Shown here piece by piece: positions 2,795 through 13,398 of a stretch of DNA of 56,193 nucleotides (the stretch's first letter is position 1; every line of letters begins with the position of its first letter). The stretch comes from Oceanospirillales bacterium (GTDB lineage Bacteria > Pseudomonadota > Gammaproteobacteria > Pseudomonadales > Balneatricaceae). The position numbers and the translations under genes are program-made. The notes under the pieces were generated by a model. That model did not search any database. It was given only the letters and a program-made list of their open reading frames with translations, and was not told where the DNA came from. The stretch spans positions 316,540-372,732 of the forward strand of contig JAAEYW010000002.1 in assembly GCA_018223185.1 (NCBI GenBank), written 5' to 3'.

Positions 2795-3082
2795 TCAGGC
2801 CCTCCGCTTAAACATCTTCAGCATGCGATGGGTAACCATAAAGCCGCCCACCACATTGATAGTTGCAAACACAATCGCAACAAACCCCAGCAACTGGACA
2901 ATGGCCCCCGGCTGATCACCAGAACCGGCCGCCAGAATCGCACCCACAATCGTAATACCTGAAATGGCATTACTGCCGGACATCAGCGGAGTGTGAAGGG
3001 TTGGCGGTACTTTAGTAATCAGTTCAACACCGAGAAATACCGCCAGGGCAAACAGCGATAGTAAAATAATAAACGCTTCCAT
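2795..3082 (-). CDS. pntAB: NAD(P) transhydrogenase subunit alpha, membrane part
   Basis: A 95-residue protein with three predicted helices, corresponding to the C-terminal membrane part of E. coli PntA. Here alpha is split into two genes, as in Rhodospirillum rubrum and many proteobacteria. LGFVAIVFATINVVGGFMVT near residues 65-84 is typical of this subunit. Its ATG overlaps the pntAA stop by one base (TAATG), so translation is coupled. It works with pntAA and pntB in the inner membrane. Confidence 0.96.
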   Translation of the reverse strand: MEAFIILLSLFALAVFLGVELITKVPPTLHTPLMSGSNAISGITIVGAILAAGSGDQPGAIVQLLGFVAIVFATINVVGGFMVTHRMLKMFKRRA

Positions 3083-4266
3083 TATGCGACCTCCTTAAGC
3101 ACAGATTCACGTGCCTGCAGCGGCAGATTCATCCTTTCACGCACGAGGTTGCTGACGATATCCCCGGCATGAGTCACCACTGATGCCTGAATAATCTCGT
3201 CATCAAAATTCAGCTCATAGTTACCCTGATCATTAAGTATGTGGTTAAGCAGGTTTTCGATATTATTACCGTACATCTGACTGGCATGGTGTGCGACCGT
3301 CGACGTGATATTGTCCGGGCCGATGATAGTGACGCCCCCGGCAACAATCTCTTTGCCATGCTGAGTCAGTTCACAGTTACCACCGCGCTCTGATGCCAGA
3401 TCGATAATCACAGCACCACGCTTCATCTGTCGGACCATCTCCGCGGTAATGAGAACCGGAGACTTAGCACCGGGAATGGCAGCGGTAGTGATAACGATAT
3501 CCTGCTGACTTAACACTTCCGTCATCAATGCCCGCTGACGTTGCAGAAACGCCTCATCCTGCTCCCGGGCATACCCGCCCTGGTCTTCTGTAGTATTCGC
3601 CTCAAGCGCCAGTTCAACGGGCTTAGCGCCAACCGAGATAATCTGTTCACGGGCTGCCGGACGCACATCATATGCCTCAACCACCGCTCCCATTCGTTTT
3701 GCAGTCGCGGCAGCCTGCAGACCGGCAACGCCAGCGCCCATAATAAACACCCTTGCAGGACTCAGATTACCGGCCGCAGTCATCATCATTGGATAGATTC
3801 GCTGTGAAGCGCTGGCCGCCAGCAACACCGCCTTATATCCGGCAAGCGTTGCCATAGAAGAGAGAACATCCATACTCTGAGCCCGGCTGATCCGGGGAAT
3901 CAGCTCCATTGCGATACTGCTTACGCCCTGTTCTGCCAGGGCGGTAAACCGTTCGGGTTCAACTAAAGGATCTATCATGCCTATTAATAATTGCCTGCTC
4001 TGCAGCGAAGCAGATACCGTATTTAACATTTGGCCAGACAGATTCACCCTCACCAGAATATCCGACTGCCGATAGATATCCTCTGCCGACGGGTTTATCT
4101 CGGCGCCGGCATCCCGATAATCCTGATCACTAAAACCGGCCGCAAGGCCCGCACCACTTTCAACCGCAAATGTTGCGCCTGAGCCTGACAGGCGTGATAT
4201 ATTTTCAGGTGTCAGCGCAACTCTGGTCTCATTGGCCGATGTTTCTTTTGCAATACCAATTCTCAT
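3082..4266 (-). CDS. pntAA: NAD(P) transhydrogenase subunit alpha, NAD-binding part
   Basis: A 394-residue soluble domain I subunit that binds NAD(H). It resembles alanine dehydrogenase: an N-terminal half, then a Rossmann fold with the GxGxxG pattern at residues 177-182 (MGAGVAGLQ) and an acidic residue in EAYDVRP that selects NAD. MDVLSSMATLAGY at 132-144 is a family signature. The start is supported by AGGGAG 9 bases upstream. The gene is 148 bases from the preceding hydrolase. A perfect 15-bp palindrome 51 bases before the ATG may mean separate control. Confidence 0.96.
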   Translation of the reverse strand: MRIGIAKETSANETRVALTPENISRLSGSGATFAVESGAGLAAGFSDQDYRDAGAEINPSAEDIYRQSDILVRVNLSGQMLNTVSASLQSRQLLIGMIDPLVEPERFTALAEQGVSSIAMELIPRISRAQSMDVLSSMATLAGYKAVLLAASASQRIYPMMMTAAGNLSPARVFIMGAGVAGLQAAATAKRMGAVVEAYDVRPAAREQIISVGAKPVELALEANTTEDQGGYAREQDEAFLQRQRALMTEVLSQQDIVITTAAIPGAKSPVLITAEMVRQMKRGAVIIDLASERGGNCELTQHGKEIVAGGVTIIGPDNITSTVAHHASQMYGNNIENLLNHILNDQGNYELNFDDEIIQASVVTHAGDIVSNLVRERMNLPLQARESVLKEVA

Positions 4267-4414: not shown

Positions 4415-5644
4415 TCAGTTACAGGCCTGATTCAGAACAGCCTGAAAGAGTACATTGCACCCGGCATGGAGGTCTTCGGGTTTGGCATTTTCTTCTTCGT
4501 TATGACTGATACCGTTTTCACACGGAACGAATACCATACCGGTAGGGGCTACCCGGGCGATATAACAGGCATCATGACCGGCACCACTGACGATATCCCG
4601 ATAACTATAGCCCGCATCTTTTGCTGCCTGGCGCACAGAATCAACACAGCCCTTATCGAAAGGAACCGGTGGGGAATACCAGATCTGTTCAAACTTCATC
4701 TCCAGACCCAGCTCATCGGCAATCCTTGCCGTCACATCCCGCAACTCAGCATCCATTGCAGACAGCACATCATCATTCGGATGACGGAAATCGATGGTGA
4801 AAAAGACTTCCCCCGGGATGACATTACGAGAGTTCGGGAATACCTGCAGCAGGCCGACAGTCGAACAGGCATTCGGCTGATTCGTCAAACCGATGCGATT
4901 TACTTCATCAATGATCCTGGCAGCCCCCAGCAGCGCATCTTTTCGACGTAGCATAGGCGTCGGACCCGCATGGGCTTCCTGCCCCGTCAGAGTAACTTCG
5001 TACCAGCGCTGCCCCTGAGCATCGGTGACCACTCCGATTGTGGTTGCTTCCTCTTCAAGAACAGGCCCCTGCTCGATGTGCGCTTCAAAAAAGGCTTTTA
5101 CCGGACTGCCAACCTCATGCTCACCGGCATAGCCAATACGTTGTAACTCTTCGCCCATGGTCTTGCCATCAAGGTCTGCACGACTTAAGCCATACTCAAG
5201 ATCAAAAACCCCGGCAAATACGCCAGACGCAACCATAGCCGGGGCAAAACGAGAGCCCTCTTCATTGGTCCAGATAGAGGCCTCAACCGGATGATCTGTT
5301 TCGATATTGTAATCATTCAGGGTCCGGATGACCTCCAGTCCGGACAGTACGCCATAAACACCATCAAATTTACCACCGGTAGGCTGAGTATCAATATGAC
5401 TCCCCATAACGACAGGAGGCAGATCATTATTCTTACCCGGCCGGCGGGCAAAAACATTACCCATCTTATCAACACGTACGGTGCAACCCGCCTCCTCACA
5501 CCACCGGGTAAACAGATCACGCGCCTGCTTATCCAGGTCTGTCAAAGCCAGTCGGCAACAGCCTCCTTTTTCGGTGCCTCCGATTTCGCCCATCTGCATC
5601 AGGCTGTCCCAAAGTCGCTGCTCATTTGTAATTATGTTTTTCAT
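4415..5644 (-). CDS. M20-family N-carbamoyl amino acid / beta-ureidopropionate / allantoate amidohydrolase
   Basis: A 409-residue two-metal amidohydrolase. The expected metal ligands are visible: H83 and D94 in GSHIDTQPTGGKFDG, E129 with the catalytic-base E128 in TNEEGSRF, H189 in HIEQGP, and H381 in GISHNEEE. Family members cleave the ureido group of N-carbamoyl amino acids, N-carbamoyl-beta-alanine or allantoate, releasing ammonia and CO2 in the cytoplasm. Which of these is the substrate cannot be told from sequence. AGGAG precedes the ATG. A RutR-type box lies 83-98 bases upstream of the start, so it is likely pyrimidine-regulated, which favours an N-carbamoyl-beta-amino acid or hydantoin-derived substrate by inference. 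Confidence 0.9.
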   Translation of the reverse strand: MKNIITNEQRLWDSLMQMGEIGGTEKGGCCRLALTDLDKQARDLFTRWCEEAGCTVRVDKMGNVFARRPGKNNDLPPVVMGSHIDTQPTGGKFDGVYGVLSGLEVIRTLNDYNIETDHPVEASIWTNEEGSRFAPAMVASGVFAGVFDLEYGLSRADLDGKTMGEELQRIGYAGEHEVGSPVKAFFEAHIEQGPVLEEEATTIGVVTDAQGQRWYEVTLTGQEAHAGPTPMLRRKDALLGAARIIDEVNRIGLTNQPNACSTVGLLQVFPNSRNVIPGEVFFTIDFRHPNDDVLSAMDAELRDVTARIADELGLEMKFEQIWYSPPVPFDKGCVDSVRQAAKDAGYSYRDIVSGAGHDACYIARVAPTGMVFVPCENGISHNEEENAKPEDLHAGCNVLFQAVLNQACN

Positions 5645-5726: not shown

Positions 5727-5742
5727 TTTACCATTTGGTCAA
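5727..5742 (-). promoter_or_regulatory. RutR-type operator upstream of the amidohydrolase
   Basis: TTTACCATTTGGTCAA matches the E. coli RutR consensus TTGACCANNTGGTCAA at all but one specified position. On the minus strand the TTGACC half could serve as a -35 element 93-98 bases before the hydrolase ATG, with a weak -10 (TAATTT) 17 bases on. Repressor binding would then block the promoter. Three similar boxes lie at 12350, 12383 and 13383. Confidence 0.75.
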
Positions 5743-5825
5743 AGTTTATTTTATGATAGATCTGCAGACTTATTAGTCTCTTTATATTCAATTAATCAGG
5801 ATTAAATACCAATAGACAGCCAAAG

Positions 5826-5879
5826 GCCTGAGGAGCGCATCAACGGTGTCATAGGTCTGTTTCTGTATGCTGCTCAGGC
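5826..5879. repeat. long imperfect inverted repeat after ribA
   Basis: GCCTGAG-AGC at 5826-5836 pairs with GCTCAGGC around 5872-5879, separated by about 35 bases. It lies 50-105 bases past the ribA stop on the minus strand. No T-run follows, so it may stabilise the 3' end of the F420 transcript or be a rho-dependent end; this is a guess. The rest of 5645-5931 shows only the operator described separately. Confidence 0.4.
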
Positions 5880-5931
5880 TGACAATCAGACGGTCTGTGA
5901 GAGCCCGTCCGTGTCAGGCGGCCGATAAATG

Positions 5932-6540
5932 CTACAGATTAACCAGATGTCCCATCCTGGTTTGCTTAGCCCTCATATAGTTCAGATTATGCTGTTGATA
6001 ACCGGCCTCTATCGGCAAGCGGGAAACGACCAGACCCAATGCCTGCAAGCTCTTAATTTTTTCCGGATTGTTCGTCAGTAACCGTAGTTGTGATATATTC
6101 AGGGCTTTCAGCACCTGCGCCGCAATATCGTAACGGCGGCTATCAATCGGCAAGCCAAGCCGCAGATTAGCATCAATGGTGTCCAGACCCTGGTCCTGTA
6201 ACTGATAGGCCCTGAGCTTATTCCTGAGTCCTATACCCCGCCCCTCCTGACGCAGGTAGATCAGAACACCGCACCCTGCCTCACTGATAATCCTCAATGA
6301 ACTGTCAAGCTGTTCACCACAATCACAACGGGAGGATGCAAACAGGTCTCCGGTGGCGCACTCTGAGTGAATCCGGATAACCGGCGCAGCGTCCAGGGAT
6401 GGTTGCCCCATCACCAGATAAATATGCTCTTTCCCATCGGCAGGATCGGTAAAGACCGTCATTGAGAAATCACCATAAGCGGTTGGCATCGGCACAGTGA
6501 CAGAATCAGTGGATCCGGGGTAACTTGCTTGTTCAGACAT
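5932..6540 (-). CDS. ribA: GTP cyclohydrolase II
   Basis: A 202-residue single-domain enzyme (E. coli RibA is about 196). It opens GTP to 2,5-diamino-6-ribosylamino-pyrimidinone phosphate, the first step toward riboflavin and toward 5-amino-6-ribitylaminouracil. The zinc ligands are C61, C72 and C74 (HSECATGDLF then SRCDCGEQL), and RQEGRGIGLRNKL at about 97-109 is the GTP/catalytic loop. ACGGAG precedes the ATG. It is the last gene of the F420 run. Since 5-amino-6-ribitylaminouracil is also the CofH substrate, this copy probably supplies F420 synthesis rather than general flavin needs; a second ribA or ribBA elsewhere is expected but not visible here. Confidence 0.95.
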   Translation of the reverse strand: MSEQASYPGSTDSVTVPMPTAYGDFSMTVFTDPADGKEHIYLVMGQPSLDAAPVIRIHSECATGDLFASSRCDCGEQLDSSLRIISEAGCGVLIYLRQEGRGIGLRNKLRAYQLQDQGLDTIDANLRLGLPIDSRRYDIAAQVLKALNISQLRLLTNNPEKIKSLQALGLVVSRLPIEAGYQQHNLNYMRAKQTRMGHLVNL

Positions 6541-6610
6541 AGAAACTCCGTCTATACGTTTTGATTAACCTCACTCTCCTTACACTCAGCCCGGTGAGGC
6601 TGATAACCGA

Positions 6611-6632
6611 CCCAGGCCTTTGCAGGCCCGGG
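6611..6632. repeat. small stem-loop between the LLM oxidoreductase and ribA
   Basis: CCC-GGCCT pairs with AGGCC-GGG around a TTGC loop, with one mismatch. It sits about 12 bases past the LLM gene stop on the minus strand and has no T-run. It may be an mRNA processing or stabilising stem inside the operon that lowers or protects ribA expression. Confidence 0.4.
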
Positions 6633-6644
6633 CATTCAGAGGGA

Positions 6645-7649
6645 TTACTTACTGAATTCTGGAATAATGTGCTTACCGTATTTTTCTACGATACTTTCCT
6701 CATCACCGTTATCCAGATAGATATTGAACTGTGTGGTACCTGCCGCTTCCAGGTCTTTCAGTTTGGCAATATGATCATCTACAGAGCCGAGAACACAGAA
6801 CTCCTCAACGATGTCCGGGGTAATGAAGTCAAGGAACGGGTTATCACTCTGTCCATGTTTAGAGTAATCATAACCCTGACGATTCCTGATATACGAGGTC
6901 AGGCTTTCAGGCACCTGGCCGCTGCTGTCGCCATACTTTTCGACGATATCTGCAACGTGGTTACCCACCATCGCAGGAAACCACTTTGTAGCTTCAAGAC
7001 AACGCTCTTTAGTACCAAAATACGCAGGAGCTGAGGCAATCACCTGATAGTTGCTCATATCGCGACCCGCGGCTTCACCGGCTTTCACCGCCTGATCTTT
7101 GAACCATTCAACCAGCGATGGAGAGCCTATCTGCAACACCACACCATCCCCCACTTCACCGGCTGTCTGGAGTGCTTTAGGACCGTAAGCGCCAATATAT
7201 ACAGGCAGTTCATAGCCTTGCGCCCATGGGAATTTAACCGGTGCCGGACAATCGTCATACATCACCTCGTCACCCCGCACCAACGCCTTAACCTTGGTGG
7301 TAAATTCAGCAACCCGAGCCAGATTGGCCGGTTTCTTACCCAGCACGCGAACGCCGCTGTCACCACGTCCCAGACCGATATGAAAACGGCCATTACTTTG
7401 CAACGCCAGACTACCGAACAAGCTTGCAGCCTGAGACCAGTCACGCGCATTAGGATGCGTTACACAGGGACCAAAACTGATCTTGGACGTATGCTCCATA
7501 CACATCGCCATCGCGGGGTATGACTCACGCCACAGCACATGAGAATCGTAGAACCAGCAGTGGGTAAAACCCGCGTCTTCCGCTTGTTTAGCCAGGTTAC
7601 GTGCGCGTTCAGGGCTAATAAAGCCTTTAAAAGTAATACCGAAATCCAT
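6645..7649 (-). CDS. F420-dependent LLM-class oxidoreductase (TIGR03842/CPS_4043-type)
   Basis: A 334-residue protein with the luciferase-like (beta/alpha)8 fold seen in methylene-H4MPT reductase (Mer) and other F420 enzymes. Recognisable stretches are MDFGITFKG at the start, GFTHCWFYDSH near 30, GPCVTHPNARDW near 82 and NGRFHIGLGRGDSG near 107. It matches what I know of the TIGR03842 family, which includes Colwellia psychrerythraea CPS_4043; the function of that family is not established. It lies between NADPH:F420 oxidoreductase and ribA, with AGGAGAA before the ATG, so F420H2 is the likely cofactor. The substrate is unknown; RutR-type control and an adjacent ureido hydrolase suggest a pyrimidine- or hydantoin-related compound (inference). 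Confidence 0.9.
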   Translation of the reverse strand: MDFGITFKGFISPERARNLAKQAEDAGFTHCWFYDSHVLWRESYPAMAMCMEHTSKISFGPCVTHPNARDWSQAASLFGSLALQSNGRFHIGLGRGDSGVRVLGKKPANLARVAEFTTKVKALVRGDEVMYDDCPAPVKFPWAQGYELPVYIGAYGPKALQTAGEVGDGVVLQIGSPSLVEWFKDQAVKAGEAAGRDMSNYQVIASAPAYFGTKERCLEATKWFPAMVGNHVADIVEKYGDSSGQVPESLTSYIRNRQGYDYSKHGQSDNPFLDFITPDIVEEFCVLGSVDDHIAKLKDLEAAGTTQFNIYLDNGDEESIVEKYGKHIIPEFSK

Positions 7650-7697
7650 AGTTATTCTCCTGATAAGGATTTTTTGTTTTAGTGTCAGTGGTAACGA

Positions 7698-8366
7698 TTA
7701 ATGATCAGGCGCCCAGATCTTCACGCCAGCGTGGGAGAAGGGCACCTTTTTCGAGATATTCAGGCGAATCAGAATCGGGGTAATAGCTTCGATGCAGCGA
7801 GCATTAACCGCAGGCCCGGCGTTGTAGGCGTTAACGTCCAGATAGCTGATCAATTCAATCACCTTCTCTTTGGCGGCCAGGTCATTTCCGCATACCAGAA
7901 TATCGCAGTTAATGGCATGACCCAGTTTGTTCAGCGTGGCCGCCGAAACATTGTGCAAAGCGCCTACCACCGGAATATCGTCACCCAACAGTGCCTGAGC
8001 CGCTTCAGTGGCAGAACCTTCTGCAGGCATATCCACAGCTTTTGGATCGCCCTCTGCCAGAGGTACAACAATATCCACCAGAACCTTATGACTCAGTTCC
8101 GCCTTAATCGCCTCAAGCGTGGCATTGTGGGCGGAATAAGGGACCGCCAGAATAACGATCTCATCCGCTGCGGCCGTTGCACCGCTGTTATCGGCACCAC
8201 TAATCACACCCGCTACACCAGGCTGCTTGTCATTCAGCTCATTAGCTATGTCTGCCGCCCGTTCGCCATCGCGAGAACCCAGAACAACATCAATACCGGC
8301 AGCAGCAAAGCGCAGAGCCAGTCCTTTTCCCTGCGGGCCTGTTCCACCCAAAATAGCAATTTTCAT
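7698..8366 (-). CDS. npdG: NADPH-dependent F420 reductase (F420:NADP oxidoreductase)
   Basis: A 222-residue Rossmann protein of the Fno/NpdG family that passes hydride between NADPH and F420. The nucleotide loop [13 protein letters not shown] covers residues 7-19. S31-R32 in GSRD are the usual contacts for the 2'-phosphate of [12 protein letters not shown] and GALHNVSA further on fit the F420-binding half. Its ATG overlaps the cofE stop (ATGA), giving translational coupling inside the F420 operon. Physiological direction is probably NADPH to F420H2, supplying the LLM enzyme encoded next, with PntAB as a possible NADPH source. Confidence 0.93.
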
Positions 8367-9148
8367 CTAAATAGATCCTCTTGTTGTGGGCGCACCAGAT
8401 CACGGGCAGAGCTGTCACACGCCTGCCAGTCAACGCCTTTAAATATCAAAACCGGCTTTTTGCCGTTTTTACTCATCAGCAAGCCGGAAGCGGCTGCAAT
8501 CTCATCCGCCAGAGCGGGAACTGTGACTGAAAGAACCCGGCCATAAGCATCTGTGTCGCCAGCCAGATCAACTTTTGCGGGAACATTGGCGAGTCCAACA
8601 GCTACATTCACCAGGCCCATTCGCCACGGGCGCCCGAAGGTATCGGTAATAATGACGCCCAGGGCTTTACCTGTTGCCCGCTCGATCGAGCGACAGATCT
8701 CTCTGGCACTGTGATCAGGATCATGGGGGAGAATAATGACCTTGCCGGCAGCATCGACATTCGACTCATCAACGGCCGCATTGGCACAGATAAAGCCCAG
8801 TCGATGCTCCGCAATAATGGTGCCTTCTTGCTGCCCGGGTCGTTTCGATGTTCGGACTAAACGCTTGGATTCAGATAGAACCACCTGAACTTTACGCGGA
8901 TCTTTATTCAGATCGGCGCCAAGTTTCAGAGCCTCTTCGCCGGGGGTAACCTCACCCAGCTCAATAATCTGGCCTTCCTGTTTTGAAACCACTTTATGGG
9001 CGATAACAATGATGTCGCCGTCATCGAGTGGGTACTGACTCTTATCGATAGCCGACAGAATAATGCCGGGAAGATCATCTCCGGGTTTAATGTCCGGAAT
9101 CCCTTCGAGGGCATGAATACTGACGTGTTTGTGATTGTTGTTATTCAT
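8363..9148 (-). CDS. cofE: coenzyme F420-0:L-glutamate ligase
   Basis: A 261-residue stand-alone CofE that adds glutamate to F420-0 using GTP. Signatures are HKVVSKQEG at 51-59, [12 protein letters not shown] at 167-178 (metal/nucleotide site) and GDTDAYGR at 197-204. Its length equals archaeal CofE; it lacks the C-terminal FMN-binding nitroreductase-like domain of actinobacterial FbiB that reduces dehydro-F420-0. So either a separate reductase exists or the precursor is 2-phospholactate or 3-phosphoglycerate. It follows cofC by 11 bases and overlaps npdG. Confidence 0.95.
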
Positions 9149-9159
9149 TGTAAGAATTC

Positions 9160-9771
9160 CTATGCGGACATTTTTTCAGGCCAGATCTCGGCCCGATCTA
9201 AATCCTCAGGGCGGTCAACATCAAAAGAGAGGTTCTCAAGAAAAAGGCGGGTGGTGTGCAGCCCCTCGTCAAAGGCAGACAGAAGATGTATCTGACAGGA
9301 GTCGGGGCCGAAGCTGAATGGCACGATATTGGGCGGAGTTGTCATCATTGCATTAGTACCGCCATCATAAGAGGGGCAGACAACCACTGAAGGCGCCACA
9401 ACCCGATGACTGAGAAGGCATTCGATCTCATCGAAATCGAGTGTTTTTATATCGCCCGGTATAACCAACTGGGTTTCAACCCCTCGTCTCTCGTTATACT
9501 CAGCAGCAAGCGTTACTGCGGCATTCAGCCCTGCCAGTTTCTGTTCCTCAAGCAGCACTTCCGCGCCATGACTTTCTGCAATCTCCTGAATGCGCTTAGA
9601 TTCGGTGACAACAAGCAGGTTATATTGAGGATAGCGTTGGCGGAAAAAATTCAGATTTTTTTCAAACAAGCCAAGCGTTAACTTTTTTCTCTGATTCCGG
9701 CTTAAAACTTTTGCCAGACGGCTTTTAGAGCGCTCTGGGCTTTTCATCGGAATAACGATAGATAACTTCAT
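9160..9771 (-). CDS. cofC: phospholactate (or 3-phosphoglycerate/PEP) guanylyltransferase
   Basis: A 203-residue nucleotidyltransferase of the CofC/FbiD family, which activates a three-carbon phospho-acid with GTP for transfer to FO. It begins MKLSIVIPMKSPERSKSRL, the family N-terminus with the nucleotide-binding K-x-x-x-S-R-L pattern, and has LVVTES near residue 59 and the loop VVCPSYDGGTNAMMTTPP near 140. The ATG at 9771 (after GGGGGTGG) is preferred; an in-frame start at 9879 would add 36 residues inside cofD and is unlikely. It follows cofD by 13 bases. The three-carbon substrate differs between archaea, actinobacteria and Paraburkholderia and cannot be decided here. Confidence 0.9.
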   Translation of the reverse strand: MKLSIVIPMKSPERSKSRLAKVLSRNQRKKLTLGLFEKNLNFFRQRYPQYNLLVVTESKRIQEIAESHGAEVLLEEQKLAGLNAAVTLAAEYNERRGVETQLVIPGDIKTLDFDEIECLLSHRVVAPSVVVCPSYDGGTNAMMTTPPNIVPFSFGPDSCQIHLLSAFDEGLHTTRLFLENLSFDVDRPEDLDRAEIWPEKMSA

Positions 9772-9784
9772 AGCCACCCCCGAC

Positions 9785-10798
9785 CTACACCGCGATCTTT
9801 CTGCCAGAGCCAGGCAGCTGTGATGAAGAGTATCCGGAACAACAGCCCTGTTGCCGCGCAGCCTGATAAACGTGAACAATGGTTTCTGCCAGCCTGATTT
9901 TATTTTGACGGCTGAACATCAGAGTGTCGGTTGCCAACACATGCGCTACCGAAGCCGACAGTTCAGAGACGGCACTGCGATCCACCTGGTCGATGACAAA
10001 AGCGTCTATCAGACCGCTATAAAAATCGGCCACCCCGATCACATCACCCCGATAACCGGCAACCTTCATCATCTGGTCGGCGGGTCCCTTTACGGTCTCG
10101 CCATTAATCAAAGGAGACACTGCAACCTTAAACGCAGACGCTTTCATCAGGGCTTCGGTCATTCCCGGAACCGACAAAATCGGCTTAATGCTGACAATGG
10201 GATTACTCGGCGCTATAACAATAAGATCCGCGTCCTCAATGGCCTTAAGCGATTCTGGCGTAGCGGTGGCATCCTCAATACCGGCTATTTTGAAATCCAG
10301 CACCTCCGGACGACACGCGTACTTTACAAAGTAATCCTGAAAATCAATCCAGCCGCTGTCAGTCATCACCTTATTCTGAATGCAGCTGTCTGTTGGCAGG
10401 ATAATCGGCGTTTTAACACCATATGAACGAGCGATCTTAGCCGCTATTTCACTGGGGCGGACGCCTTGTTTACGCAGTTCTGTACGGTAAATATGGGTGG
10501 CGAAATCTTTGTCCCCCAGATACATCCAGGTATCTGCCCCCAGTTTTTTTAACTGATCAAGAACCCGGCTGCTTTCTGCCTGCAGCCCCCACCCCTTGTC
10601 TGTATCGATCTCTTCAGCCAGGGTATAGGTCAGCGTATCAATATCAGGAGAAACCCACAGACCATGAAAATCCTGATCATCAGCAACATTACCAATCACG
10701 CTGAACTGCTCAGAAAAACGGCTGAAGGCAAAACCTTCCGCCATTTTGGCACCACCTACTCCGCCACTTAACAGCACAATCTTAAGTGGCTCGTTCAT
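9785..10798 (-). CDS. cofD: 2-phospho-L-lactate (or related) transferase, F420-0 forming
   Basis: A 337-residue CofD/FbiA protein that joins the activated phospho-acid to the deazaflavin FO, making F420-0 or its dehydro or glycerate analogue. SGGVGGAKMAEGF at 11-23 and GNVADD at 36-41 are the FO/GDP-binding signatures, and APSNPIVSIKPIL near 207 is also conserved. It overlaps the cofH stop by four bases. The last 20 or so residues (from about 318, with two adjacent cysteines and a Ser-rich stretch) look like an added tail beyond the usual C-terminus. Confidence 0.95.
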   Translation of the reverse strand: MNEPLKIVLLSGGVGGAKMAEGFAFSRFSEQFSVIGNVADDQDFHGLWVSPDIDTLTYTLAEEIDTDKGWGLQAESSRVLDQLKKLGADTWMYLGDKDFATHIYRTELRKQGVRPSEIAAKIARSYGVKTPIILPTDSCIQNKVMTDSGWIDFQDYFVKYACRPEVLDFKIAGIEDATATPESLKAIEDADLIVIAPSNPIVSIKPILSVPGMTEALMKASAFKVAVSPLINGETVKGPADQMMKVAGYRGDVIGVADFYSGLIDAFVIDQVDRSAVSELSASVAHVLATDTLMFSRQNKIRLAETIVHVYQAARQQGCCSGYSSSQLPGSGRKIAV

Positions 10799-12060
10799 GA
10801 CGCAACCCTCACAGCGTCGGCCGTAGTCGCAATCAGCTGAACACTGGCATCGGGGGACAGCGACCGATTCACTGTATCCCGTTCATAATGTTCAATAACG
10901 CCATAAAGAGTGTTGCGACGAACCGGATCACGTCCTGCTGCACTGATCATGCGAATCATATCTTCAGGAACAATTTCCTGTTTGTTTTTGCCGCCTGCGG
11001 CCCGGGAGATACTTTCATTCATCAGCGTACCACCCAGATCATTCGCGCCTGCCCGCAGCATCTGCTGGGCATACCCCGGCCCGAGTTTTACCCAGGAAGC
11101 CTGAATATTATCAATCCAGCCATTCAGCATCAGACGGGCAACCGCATGCATGCGGAGATTTTCTTCAGGCGTTGGGCCCGGTCTGACATTGGGAATATTC
11201 ATATAGAGCGGGGATTCATAATGCACAAAGCCCAGAGGTACGAACTCGGTAAAACCACCCGTCTGTTTCTGAATCGCTCTGATCTTAGCGATGTGCGATG
11301 CCCAGTGCTCAGGGGCATCAATATGGCCGTACATAATAGTGGCCGTGGTGGGTAATCCCAGTTGATGAGCCGTGGTGATAATCTCAATCCATTGTTCGGT
11401 GGTCAGCTTATCGCGGGTTAATTGCTGACGAATTTCAACATCAAGAATCTCAGCGGCGGTACCCGGCATTGAGCCCAGACCGTGATCCATAAGATCCTGA
11501 ATAAACTCAGCCACGGACACCTTGCTTTTCAATGCACCAAACCAGATTTCAAAGGGGGAAAAGGCGTGAATATGCATGCCCGGAATACGGGTTTTGATCG
11601 CCTTCAGGATTTCACGGTAATGGCTGCCATCAATATCCGGATGCAAACCGCCCTGTATACAGACTTCTGTAGCCCCCCGGTTCCAGGCCTCTTCAGCCCT
11701 GTCGGCAACCTCATCAAAACTGAGTAGCTCAGCTGTCGACTCATCTTTACGTTTAGCAAAACCGCAGAACTTACAGCCCATATAGCAAACATTGGTAAAG
11801 TTGATATTCCGGGTAATCACAAAGCTGGCCTGGTTTCCCACGGCCTGACTGCGGATGTAGTCGGCAGTCGAAATAAGCGCATCGAGTGCCGGGCCTGTGG
11901 CGCCGAACAGGGTTACAGCATCAGATTCAGATAGTTCAGCTCCCTCTAAAACAGAGGTGAGGATGTTGCGGATGTTCACGTCAATACCAGACAACTGATC
12001 ACTCAGTTTATGGTGTTCAGAGACACTGTTATTCAAACTTAAAATACTTGGGGCGTTCAT
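10795..12060 (-). CDS. cofH: FO synthase subunit 2 (radical SAM 5-amino-6-ribitylaminouracil:tyrosine transferase)
   Basis: A 421-residue radical SAM enzyme joining a tyrosine-derived 4-hydroxybenzyl group to 5-amino-6-(ribitylamino)uracil, the first half of FO synthesis. The [4Fe-4S] cysteines are C92, C96 and C99 (NVCYMGCKFCGF). CIQGGLHP near 134 and the C-terminal DLGGTLMNESISRAAGG pattern are typical of CofH and not of CofG. AAGGAAAG precedes the ATG. It is first in the F420 operon, about 300 bases from a promoter flanked by RutR-type boxes. A fused FbiC would be about twice this length; its partner CofG is absent from the window. Confidence 0.93.
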   Translation of the reverse strand: MNAPSILSLNNSVSEHHKLSDQLSGIDVNIRNILTSVLEGAELSESDAVTLFGATGPALDALISTADYIRSQAVGNQASFVITRNINFTNVCYMGCKFCGFAKRKDESTAELLSFDEVADRAEEAWNRGATEVCIQGGLHPDIDGSHYREILKAIKTRIPGMHIHAFSPFEIWFGALKSKVSVAEFIQDLMDHGLGSMPGTAAEILDVEIRQQLTRDKLTTEQWIEIITTAHQLGLPTTATIMYGHIDAPEHWASHIAKIRAIQKQTGGFTEFVPLGFVHYESPLYMNIPNVRPGPTPEENLRMHAVARLMLNGWIDNIQASWVKLGPGYAQQMLRAGANDLGGTLMNESISRAAGGKNKQEIVPEDMIRMISAAGRDPVRRNTLYGVIEHYERDTVNRSLSPDASVQLIATTADAVRVAS

Positions 12061-12119
12061 ATTTCTTTCCTTAACTTAAATTCAATGGCACCTAAGAAAA
12101 GACGTGGTATTCATCCTGC

Positions 12120-12138
12120 TGGCAGTTTTGAACTGCCA
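12120..12138. promoter_or_regulatory. perfect hairpin in the cofH leader
   Basis: TGGCAGTT and AACTGCCA form an 8-bp stem with a three-base loop, 60-78 bases upstream of the cofH ATG and within its predicted transcript. No T-run follows on either strand. It may shape the leader or be part of an attenuation or processing signal. Confidence 0.5.
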
Positions 12139-12180
12139 CGAAGCTGAACGAACCGTCCGGGAATAAGAATTCACACAGGA

Positions 12181-12300
12181 CTAAACAGGCGGAACAGATG
12201 CACGCTCTACTAAATATTTCAGCGCGTGAACTGAAGAGAAAACAGTCTTAAACATCAGCGGCTGATGACGCGGAAGTGCTTCACTATTCATCAGTCCCAT
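12181..12300 (-). CDS. possible leader peptide or small protein upstream of cofH
   Basis: A 39-codon frame (MGLMNSEALPRHQP... ending ERASVPPV) inside the roughly 300-base leader of the predicted cofH transcript. GGAG lies just before the first ATG and about 11 bases before the second (12291). The frame stays open upstream to 12390, but that ATG lies in an operator and upstream of the predicted transcription start. No known family is recognised. It could be a regulatory leader peptide or chance. Confidence 0.25.
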   Translation of the reverse strand: MGLMNSEALPRHQPLMFKTVFSSVHALKYLVERASVPPV

Positions 12301-12349
12301 TACTCCGTGTTTATTTTTATTCTCGGTATAGGTCTGCATCCACAAACTT

Positions 12350-12365
12350 TTTACCAAACGGTAAA
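12350..12365 (-). promoter_or_regulatory. RutR-type operator 2 at the cofH transcription start
   Basis: TTTACCAAACGGTAAA is a near-perfect palindrome (TTTACC-N4-GGTAAA). It overlaps the predicted +1 of the promoter at 12369-12398. Its centre is 33 bp from that of operator 1, about three helical turns, so two dimers would bind the same DNA face. Confidence 0.65.
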
Positions 12366-12368
12366 ATA

Positions 12369-12398
12369 ATACTAGACTAATATTTACCATCTGGTCAA
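12369..12398 (-). promoter_or_regulatory. predicted sigma70 promoter of the F420 operon
   Basis: On the minus strand -35 TTGACC (12393-12398) and -10 TAGTAT (12369-12374) are 18 bp apart, giving a start near 12362 and a leader of about 300 bases to cofH. The -35 lies in operator 1 and the start in operator 2, a layout expected for repression. Confidence 0.6.
12383..12398 (-). promoter_or_regulatory. RutR-type operator 1 over the cofH -35 element
   Basis: TTTACCATCTGGTCAA differs from the E. coli RutR consensus at one specified position. It differs from the box at 5727 only in a central spacer base. It covers the predicted -35. Confidence 0.75.
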
Positions 12399-12601
12399 TA
12401 GATTATTCAAAGATATTTAATCTTCACCAATAGCCAATATAAGTAATTGAAATTAAAGAAATATAATCAATAATGAATGAAACAGGCGGGAGTTTCAGAG
12501 GCTTAAAAATTCAATTTCCAGTCAAAATCATAGGCAGAAAAGTTGAACGCCTGCTGTAATAATCGAGGATTTAAAAGAGAATAGATGGGGATGCGAGACA
12601 T
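12399..12601. other. AT-rich gap between the cofH promoter and the regulator terminator
   Basis: About 200 bases rich in A and T, with no open frame of interest and no clear repeat. Together with the leader it makes the 624-base space between cofH and the regulator gene. Confidence 0.6.
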
Positions 12602-12642
12602 AAAAAAACCAGATAAAGCACTGTTACGGGCATTATCTGGTT
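12602..12642 (-). terminator. terminator after the RutR-like gene
   Basis: A 10-bp stem (AACCAGATAA with TTATCTGGTT, 12607-12642) is followed on the minus strand by seven T. It lies about 45 bases past the regulator stop and insulates the F420 promoter from it. Confidence 0.85.
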
Positions 12643-12684
12643 GCTGTCTTTTCGTAGACCGGCGAATCAAACCACCGCAAGAGC

Positions 12685-13338
12685 TTACTTCATGCCAAGC
12701 CCTTTAATAACTAAATGTGTCAGAAATTCTGTCGCATTATCAAAATCATCATCCTGAAGTTTTTCTTTGCCTAAGGATATGCTTATCTGAGATGAGAAGT
12801 CAGCGTAAGTCTGAGTAGACGACCAGATCATAAAAAACAGATGATAAGGGTCGACATCATCCATCACACCTTCAGCTATCCATTTTCTCACCAGTCTGAC
12901 ATCGGCATCCAGTGCCGGAGTCAGGTGTGATTTGAGATACTCCTTCAGATAAGGCGCCCCGTTAATGATCTCTATCGCGAAAACTTTAGAAGCCTCCGGA
13001 TTACTTCGGGATAACTCGACCTTGCCTCGTATATAGTTACGCAGCATCTCCTTCGGGTTCTCTCCGAGCTGATCCAGCAACGCCATTTTCTCGACCCACA
13101 TGTCGAGGATATTTTTCAGAACCTGTTGATAGAGAACCTCTTTGGAAGAAAAATAATAGATCAGGTTCTGCTTAGACATACCCGCTTTTTCAGCGATAGT
13201 TTCAAGCGCAGTCCCGTTATAACCATTAAGCGAAAAAAGGTGTTCTGCAGCCCTGAGAATAGTATTCTCATGCCCCTCCCGAATACGGGAGCGGCGACGC
13301 GGTTTACTATTAACGACTTCTTCCGATGAATTCGACAT
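12685..13338 (-). CDS. RutR-like TetR-family regulator
   Basis: A 217-residue TetR-family repressor. The N-terminal HTH covers about residues 22-70 (TALETIAEKAGMSKQNLIYY). The C-terminal half matches E. coli RutR closely: YIRGKVELSRSNPEASKVF and DPYHLFFMIWSSTQTYADF align with YIRLKLEVSRDYPQASRLF and DPQHLIFMIWASTQHYADF. E. coli RutR is released from DNA by uracil or thymine and controls pyrimidine degradation. Here a RutR-type box lies 45 bases before its own ATG, and others precede cofH and the amidohydrolase, so autoregulation and control of the F420 locus are predicted. The effector may be a pyrimidine; that is inference from homology. Confidence 0.9.
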   Translation of the reverse strand: MSNSSEEVVNSKPRRRSRIREGHENTILRAAEHLFSLNGYNGTALETIAEKAGMSKQNLIYYFSSKEVLYQQVLKNILDMWVEKMALLDQLGENPKEMLRNYIRGKVELSRSNPEASKVFAIEIINGAPYLKEYLKSHLTPALDADVRLVRKWIAEGVMDDVDPYHLFFMIWSSTQTYADFSSQISISLGKEKLQDDDFDNATEFLTHLVIKGLGMK

Positions 13339-13382
13339 TATGAATTAATACCCGATATAAGAATTAAATACTCAGAAGATAT

Positions 13383-13398
13383 TTTACCATGTGGTAAT
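13383..13398 (-). promoter_or_regulatory. RutR-type operator upstream of the regulator gene
   Basis: TTTACCATGTGGTAAT keeps both ACCA/TGGT half-sites. On the minus strand it overlaps a TAAAAT -10-like element (5 of 6 consensus), so the regulator probably represses itself. Confidence 0.7.

Follow-up and report, generated by a model that had tools for sequence, protein, structure and literature searches.

The systems closest to the locus described here include reductive pyrimidine degradation (Pyd), the Rut system of E. coli, and two variant reductases. PydR of Pseudomonas putida is a RutR-like repressor of the gene for dihydropyrimidine dehydrogenase (DPD), according to the title of a reference cited in PMC7332683. 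PydAc of Clostridium is a ferredoxin-dependent DPD, which performs the same uracil-reducing step with an alternative electron donor (PMC7332683). In Chloroflexota, a luciferase-family enzyme, putatively a yanthine reductase dependent on F420, has been proposed to replace a PydA/YgfK-type pyrimidine-ring reductase; it belongs to the purine (uric acid) pathway of anaerobes, and the available passages of the source mention no regulon (PMC12507026). Here, we analyze a 56,193-nucleotide stretch of the genome of an Oceanospirillales bacterium (contig JAAEYW010000002.1, C42:316540–372732 in our numbering; hereafter the window), in which palindromic operator-like boxes, a RutR-like regulator gene, and genes for the synthesis of coenzyme F420 lie together with Pyd genes. 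We propose, with a probability of about 0.83, that the locus is a uracil-inducible Pyd regulon, in which an F420-dependent luciferase-fold reductase replaces the iron-sulfur flavoprotein DPD as the first enzyme. In the open-licence PMC literature (no preprints; partly among the matches listed), we found no publication describing uracil reduction with F420 or RutR-type control of F420, and the main text of a review on F420 contains neither the word "uracil" nor "transcriptional regulat".

The locus resembles Pyd under PydR in that a RutR-like regulator would control a reductase gene, and in the dihydropyrimidinase, ureidopropionase, and aminotransferase steps. It differs in the absence of a PreA/PydA-type dehydrogenase, instead of which an F420 enzyme and the genes for making F420 belong to the regulon. 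PydAc, according to the passages cited above, is still a member of the PydA family, whereas the window cluster changes the whole enzyme family. The likeness to E. coli RutR/Rut, as far as the available passages of PMC10891134 describe it, comprises a regulator homologous over its length, the same uracil-contact residues, and a 16-base palindrome; the window cluster differs from Rut in encoding a reductive route and F420 synthesis.

Four palindromes, which the original prediction had reported from the window, are present at 5727–5742 (TTTACCATTTGGTCAA), 12350–12365 (TTTACCAAACGGTAAA), 12383–12398 (TTTACCATCTGGTCAA), and 13383–13398 (TTTACCATGTGGTAAT, with a terminal T). Compared with the form given in that prediction, the fourth deviates by one mismatch; compared with the pattern TTKACCANNTGGTMAA, the boxes have 0, 1, 0, and 1 mismatches, respectively. 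As predicted, every box lies upstream of a minus-strand transcription unit: the first precedes a hydrolase gene (start 5644), the middle two precede cofH (start 12060), whose leader spans about 290 bases, and the last precedes the regulator gene (start 13338), which is probably autoregulated. With up to two mismatches allowed, the window holds 11 strand-matches, compared to 3.45 ± 2.29 in 100 shuffled sequences, none of which reached 11. Scanning of the whole 4.6-Mb genome at up to one mismatch identified nine sites, eight of which are clustered within C42:304646–329937 (25.3 kb, 0.55% of the genome; binomial P ~7e-18). All eight are intergenic, four of them inside the window and four just to the left of it. 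They precede genes for a porin, cofG, an aminotransferase followed by mmsA, an NCS1 permease followed by dihydropyrimidinase, the hydrolase, the cofH operon (two boxes), and the regulator. The ninth site (C30:23510) was rejected as a further target, as it sits inside an unrelated ABC_sub_bind open reading frame. At up to two mismatches, the pattern is not enriched genome-wide over its reversed control (74 versus 117 matches per strand), and therefore only close matches carry meaning.

The region C42:304646–329937 holds the gene cluster. The hydrolase behind the box at 5727–5742 is of the β-ureidopropionase type and belongs to the hydantoinase/carbamoylase family of amidases (4415–5644, minus strand, as are all the window genes named here; TIGR01879, 440.1 bits, cut-off 204). 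It is followed by transhydrogenase genes: the first part of pntA, encoding subunit alpha (3082–4266; PRK09424, 386.4 bits, cut-off 383), the second part of pntA, encoding a small membrane subunit (2795–3082; assigned from its position between pntA and pntB, beside which it is kept in relatives), and pntB, encoding subunit beta (1386–2792; assigned from position, sequence, and neighborhood in relatives). The boxes at 12350 and 12383 precede a run composed of cofH for F420 (FO) biosynthesis (10795–12060; TIGR03551, 508.9 bits, cut-off 374.1), cofD (9785–10798; TIGR01819, 283.8 bits, cut-off 257.45) and cofC (9160–9879; TIGR03552, 136.2 bits, cut-off 105), both for F420 biosynthesis, cofE for F420-0:glutamate ligase (8363–9148; TIGR01916, 260.5 bits, cut-off 180.65), npdG (fno) for NADPH:F420 reductase (7698–8366; TIGR01915, 197.4 bits, cut-off 149.8), a gene for a luciferase-like F420 oxidoreductase of family TIGR03842 (hereafter LLM; 6645–7649; 484.2 bits, cut-off 295.45), and ribA for GTP cyclohydrolase II (5932–6540; TIGR00505, 237.1 bits, cut-off 205.85). 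The true start of cofC is probably internal, because its open frame overlaps cofD. Four units with an upstream box lie to the left of the window (locus L046): the gene for a Tsx-like nucleoside channel (PF03502); cofG; the genes for an omega-aminotransferase and, behind it, an MMSDH-type dehydrogenase; and those for an NCS1 permease and, behind it, dihydropyrimidinase (TIGR02033, 625.6 bits). Both dihydropyrimidinase and the hydrolase thus lie in boxed units, and the F420 biosynthesis set of cofG, cofH, cofD, cofC, and cofE is complete, each above the cut-off of its own model. A search of this genome with E. coli PreA gave no match at E ≤1e-30, and a PreA/PydA-type DPD was thus not found. The gene list is that of the Pyd pathway plus F420 synthesis, minus DPD. 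The presence of F420 genes within a Pyd cluster that has no classical reductase provides a reason for their proposed control by uracil, which the original prediction had not seen.

The regulator (217 residues; 12685–13338) resembles E. coli RutR along its length, as had been predicted: 85 of 199 aligned residues are identical (43%), RutR (PDB 3loc) is matched with an E value of 3.5e-44 over residues 14–214, and the YcdC-like domain PF08362 (TetR_C_3) scores 161.4 bits. The score against the RutR equivalog model TIGR03613 is 187.3 bits, which is below the cut-off of 368, and we therefore call this TetR-family protein RutR/PydR-type rather than RutR. In RutR, uracil stacks with W77 and W167 and is contacted by Q171, by Y97 via water, and by Q179' from the other chain, according to the available passages of PMC10891134. 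The equivalent residues of the window regulator, W81, W172, Q176, Y102, and Q184, are all identical to those of RutR. The five contacts are invariant in the 11 regulators that were aligned first, four of which come from genomes with PreA, and the complete set is retained in 29 of 31 regulators from a family sample and 65 of 68 from named genomes, the two sets overlapping. K52 is retained in 31/31 and 67/68 of these regulators, respectively, and K62 in all of them. Because the uracil-contact residues are identical to those of RutR and conserved in relatives, the ligand of the regulator is probably a pyrimidine.

The reductase itself was compared across a family sample of 116 genomes and an order sample of 322 genomes, in which PreA was counted at E <1e-50. 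In the family sample, a dihydropyrimidinase was considered the same as that of the cluster if it scored at least 581 bits against TIGR02033, which holds for 41 of the 55 genomes matching at E ≤1e-60. Genome G043 was added after a check, since its copy, cut by a contig end, shows 73% identity over 379 residues. The 13 genomes left out are G002, G028, G030, G033, and G074, whose proteins are over the model cut-off and 39–40% identical, and eight with proteins below the cut-off. In the order sample, E ≤1e-120 to the L046 protein was required, and all matches are at least 64% identical. The resulting 68 distinct genomes with this dihydropyrimidinase comprise 34 with LLM, 33 with PreA, none with both, and one with neither (Fisher P 2.5e-18, relatedness ignored). 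LLM occurs in 23 and PreA in 19 genomes of the family sample, with no overlap; the dihydropyrimidinase is found in 42, of which 22 have LLM, 19 have PreA, and G043 has neither. The family LLM genome without the dihydropyrimidinase, G013, has its cluster split over contigs. In the order sample, the dihydropyrimidinase is present in 30 genomes, 14 with LLM and 16 with PreA, from totals of 15 LLM and 22 PreA genomes. PreA matches in G054 and G055 (29–30% identical, E ~2e-39) were not counted, and the zero overlap rests on the E threshold because G054 is an LLM genome; around its sub-threshold match (27% identical), the fetched 14 kb contain no reference Pyd gene.

Every one of the 19 PreA genomes in the family sample has preT-preA near the same dihydropyrimidinase. 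Their fetched stretches include the hydrolase in 16 cases, a related regulator (40–50% identity) in 12, and a box in 11, in one of them only inside a gene. The pathway and its control persist while the reductase changes. Both kinds of genome occur within genera g12 (G077 versus G078–G082 and G087) and g299 (G626 versus G771), which implies that the swap happened more than once.

An alternative, which we consider unlikely, is that the cluster serves for the use of hydantoins, allantoin-like compounds, or other preformed dihydropyrimidines. The pathway would then need no first reductase, and LLM and the F420 genes would be co-regulated for another step or substrate. The families of dihydropyrimidinase, NCS1, and carbamoylase also include proteins that act on hydantoins, and the permease matches allantoin permease models as well, below their cut-offs. 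Moreover, an F420-dependent luciferase-family reductase has been suggested for a purine-derived ring, that of yanthine, in Chloroflexota (available passages of PMC12507026). The complementarity of LLM and PreA over the 68 dihydropyrimidinase genomes argues against this alternative, as do the uracil pocket retained in the regulator and the boxed omega-aminotransferase and MMSDH-type dehydrogenase, which are the expected end of β-alanine breakdown.

The association of the boxes with F420 genes is conserved. In related loci, we counted boxes with up to one mismatch located within 400 bases upstream of a gene or in its first 60 bases; genes lying no more than 420 bases from the end of a locus were left out of this and the following dyad count. 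Such boxes were found for cofG in 61 of 65 cases, for the hydrolase in 29 of 63, and for the regulator in 28 of 69, versus 12 of 373 other genes. Each of 20 scrambled palindromes was found upstream of 0/65 cofG genes. In a motif-free count of dyads upstream of cofG, the top one was TACCA-N2-TGGTA, present in 35/65 cases versus 1/373 for other genes. The shuffles of the window, the clustering in the genome, the conservation, and the scrambled palindromes together lead us to reject a chance origin of the boxes.

The boxes upstream of cofG or cofH are often paired, and 28 of 31 consecutive spacings are 32–34 bases, with 33 bases for the cofH pair of the window. Box 1 of this pair (12383–12398) contains a −35-like hexamer TTGACC (12398–12393, minus strand), which is followed 18 bases on by TAGTAT, and box 2 (12350–12365) is positioned just past this −10-like hexamer. 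The layout is suited to repression; promoter-like sites as such, with seven found versus 3.0 ± 1.8 in shuffles, are weak alone. The cofH leader (12060–12350) is overlapped by a 69-codon open frame at 12181–12390, and the cofG gene of this genome, about 22 kb distant, has a separate box. Boxes are located about 300–410 bases upstream of cofH in the five cofH-first loci L115–L119, and 38–166 bases upstream of cofG in the cofG-first loci shown. The long cofH leader may be the former place of cofG.

Linkage was determined in the fetched stretches of the family sample and in named genomes, of which the best 80 of 264 LLM relatives were kept with flanks of at most 10 kb; genes were counted at 35% identity or more to reference proteins. 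In the family sample, the genomes with cofH above its cut-off are exactly those with LLM, 23 of 116. The corresponding 23 stretches, several of which are truncated where a contig ends, contain cofD, cofC, and cofH in all 23 cases, npdG, cofE, and cofG in 22, LLM and the hydrolase in 21, the regulator in 18, dihydropyrimidinase and NCS1 in 15, pntA in 13, the aminotransferase and mmsA in 10, ribA in 7, and PreA in 0. In G110 and G111, LLM lies on another contig than the cofH stretch. LLM is kept at 74–99% identity in these clusters, and cofC down to about 41%. The 80 named loci come from Amphritea, Oceanospirillum, Marinobacterium, Marinomonas, Halomonas, Halopseudomonas, Colwellia, Alteromonas, Vibrio, Ruegeria, and others, and the closest three among these best 80 of 264 are from Amphritea (96–98% identity), which points to Amphritea or a near relative as the probable host of the window. 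Their flanks include cofE in 75 loci, cofH in 74, npdG in 73, cofD in 70, the regulator in 68, cofG in 67, the hydrolase in 64, cofC in 62, NCS1 in 47, and dihydropyrimidinase in 33. No PreA or PreT match above 60 bits was found in these flanks, to which the search for DPD in the named genomes was confined. All 80 genomes have cofH, 74 in the flank and six elsewhere. In four of these six (L199–L202), the cofG and cofH matches share one open frame of 837–864 codons, as in a fused protein. The cofH part of these frames, located away from the LLM locus, is 47–49% identical to the window cofH.

A plasmid of Leisingera carries the permease, dihydropyrimidinase, hydrolase, aminotransferase, pntAB, cofGHDCE, npdG, LLM, and the regulator in a row. 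Loci L141, L164, L177, and L194 have LLM without nearby F420 genes, yet close to a regulator of this kind (36–39% identity), and in L177 and L194 LLM is positioned directly between dihydropyrimidinase and the regulator. The RutR-like regulator, the boxes, and the F420 genes form one conserved unit. The boxes, the regulon, and the cluster are solid, and the role of LLM as an F420-dependent uracil reductase is strongly suggested. That a pyrimidine or a related compound induces F420 synthesis and use, as originally predicted, is supported by the conserved uracil contacts and the conserved linkage of boxes and F420 genes; the gene content, the box conservation, the linkage, the retained uracil pocket, the fold typical of F420 enzymes, and the complementarity with DPD are observations, and from them we infer binding by the repressor, its release by uracil, and the reaction of LLM with its direction.

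It is very unlikely that the boxes and F420 genes are merely co-located, with F420 serving other enzymes of the cell and the control by uracil incidental, as the detached, unboxed cofG of the Vibrio sp. locus L120 could indicate. Such a co-location is at odds with the occurrence of cofH and LLM in the same 23 genomes, and with the seven family genomes in which cofG is apart from cofH and keeps its own box. Furthermore, none of the three remaining luciferase-family proteins encoded in the genome reaches an F420-named cut-off, two of them passing only that of the MsnO8 family and one none at all; this comparison covers the luciferase family, and other F420-enzyme families, such as split-barrel FDORs, were not searched for.

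LLM belongs to PF00296 and is not a homolog of PreA/PydA, although it may function like one. A profile search of solved structures placed Mer, the F420-dependent methylenetetrahydromethanopterin reductase (1z69, E 8e-35), first, followed by other F420 enzymes. The predicted structure of LLM has a mean pLDDT of 80.8, with residues 263–270 poorly modeled. The 18 best Foldseek matches of the model are chains of F420 enzymes (8qpl, E 9e-24), and bacterial luciferase is the 19th. Mer is thus the nearest solved structure by both sequence and fold. However, Glu6 of Mer, mutated in entry 8qq8, aligns with Thr6 of LLM, which indicates that the active site of LLM differs from that of Mer. We infer that LLM transfers a hydride from F420H2 to uracil, in the direction of reduction. 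The Rut pathway uses an oxygenase route, in which uracil is the substrate of RutA, an enzyme with a luciferase fold. That LLM is a RutA-like F420- or flavin mononucleotide (FMN)-dependent oxygenase or oxidative enzyme opening the ring, as the RutR-like regulator might suggest, is hardly credible and was rejected on family and fold matches, as the 17 NCBIfam families that LLM matches at E ≤0.001 include no RutA model, the closest sequences and folds are those of F420 hydride-transfer enzymes rather than of FMN monooxygenases, the accompanying dihydropyrimidinase needs dihydrouracil, and npdG is linked to LLM in 73 of the 80 loci, as for a reduction.

Several observations weigh against LLM being the uracil reductase of a uracil-controlled regulon. 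The 87% complete genome G043 carries the dihydropyrimidinase (73% identity) on a 3.3-kb contig, and neither reductase was found in this genome. The PreA genome G098 (L087, L107) includes a contig ending inside cofH, with paired boxes and an LLM-type regulator (72% identical), and LLM was not found there; this reflects either an error of binning or an unusual genome that has both routes. In the order sample, six PreA genomes are without this dihydropyrimidinase. Dihydropyrimidinase flanks only 33 of the 80 named LLM loci, and is present in 15 of the 23 family LLM stretches as fetched. The cofG of L120 stands apart and lacks a box. The uracil contacts have exceptions, with Leu in place of RutR W77 in two Amphritea genomes and Phe in place of Y97 in one second copy of the regulator. 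Plasmid p402633 of Paracoccus alcaliphilus (L208) carries cofGHDCE-npdG-LLM, with no Pyd gene or such regulator within 14 kb. Judging by context, TIGR03842 does not have a single function: a member from G596 (L214, G596:C47:76000–95999; 520.7 bits) is 42% identical to the window LLM and is followed by an MMSDH-like dehydrogenase (53%), in the one LLM genome of the order sample that is without such a dihydropyrimidinase, and with no such hydrolase nearby. This member probably has another function within the family. Its identity of only 42% and different setting show that TIGR03842 is broader than the Pyd-linked clade.

We hypothesize that, when no pyrimidine is available, the RutR/PydR-type repressor would occupy the boxes and keep uptake (the Tsx-like porin and NCS1), the Pyd enzymes, and F420 synthesis switched off. 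Uracil or thymine would bind to the repressor and cause its release from the boxes. CofG, CofH, CofD, CofC, and CofE, here with RibA, which could supply the pyrimidine precursor of FO, would make F420. NpdG is the proposed source of F420H2, and would keep F420 reduced with the aid of PntAB, the proposed source of NADPH for NpdG in this genome. LLM, the proposed F420H2-dependent uracil (dihydropyrimidine) reductase, would pass a hydride from F420H2 to uracil, yielding dihydrouracil. Dihydropyrimidinase and ureidopropionase would then produce β-alanine, and the aminotransferase and semialdehyde dehydrogenase would complete the breakdown.

More generally, it appears likely that marine Proteobacteria make F420 on demand for essentially one reaction. 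A TIGR03842 subfamily would be an unrelated DPD reducing uracil and thymine with F420H2. The enzyme, its cofactor pathway, and the cofactor-reducing genes would be co-induced through a uracil-sensing repressor, and would have been repeatedly swapped with the iron-sulfur enzyme. If true, this would give F420 a concrete physiological role in many Proteobacteria and a further, unrelated enzyme to the reduction of uracil, the step by which human DPD clears 5-fluorouracil. It would also place the entire pathway to a cofactor under the repressor that governs the sole catabolic route using this cofactor. The curated name of TIGR03842 carries no function, and our reading supplies a testable substrate for a part of the family.

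Some further features of the cluster and its relatives were observed. The two NCS1 permease genes at L046:13177–14679 and L046:17029–18555 are 99% identical as far as they can be read, with the second passing into N directly ahead of the window, and relatives carry two more-diverged NCS1 copies; the near-identical pair suggests a recent duplication, gene conversion, or an assembly effect. On the Paracoccus alcaliphilus plasmid, the cofGHDCE-npdG-LLM block adjoins ABC transporter and formate dehydrogenase genes. A LuxR-type regulator gene with a GerE domain and low conservation is located between cofG and mmsA (L046:8025–8738), and a LysR-type gene adjoins the aminotransferase (L046:11941–12981).

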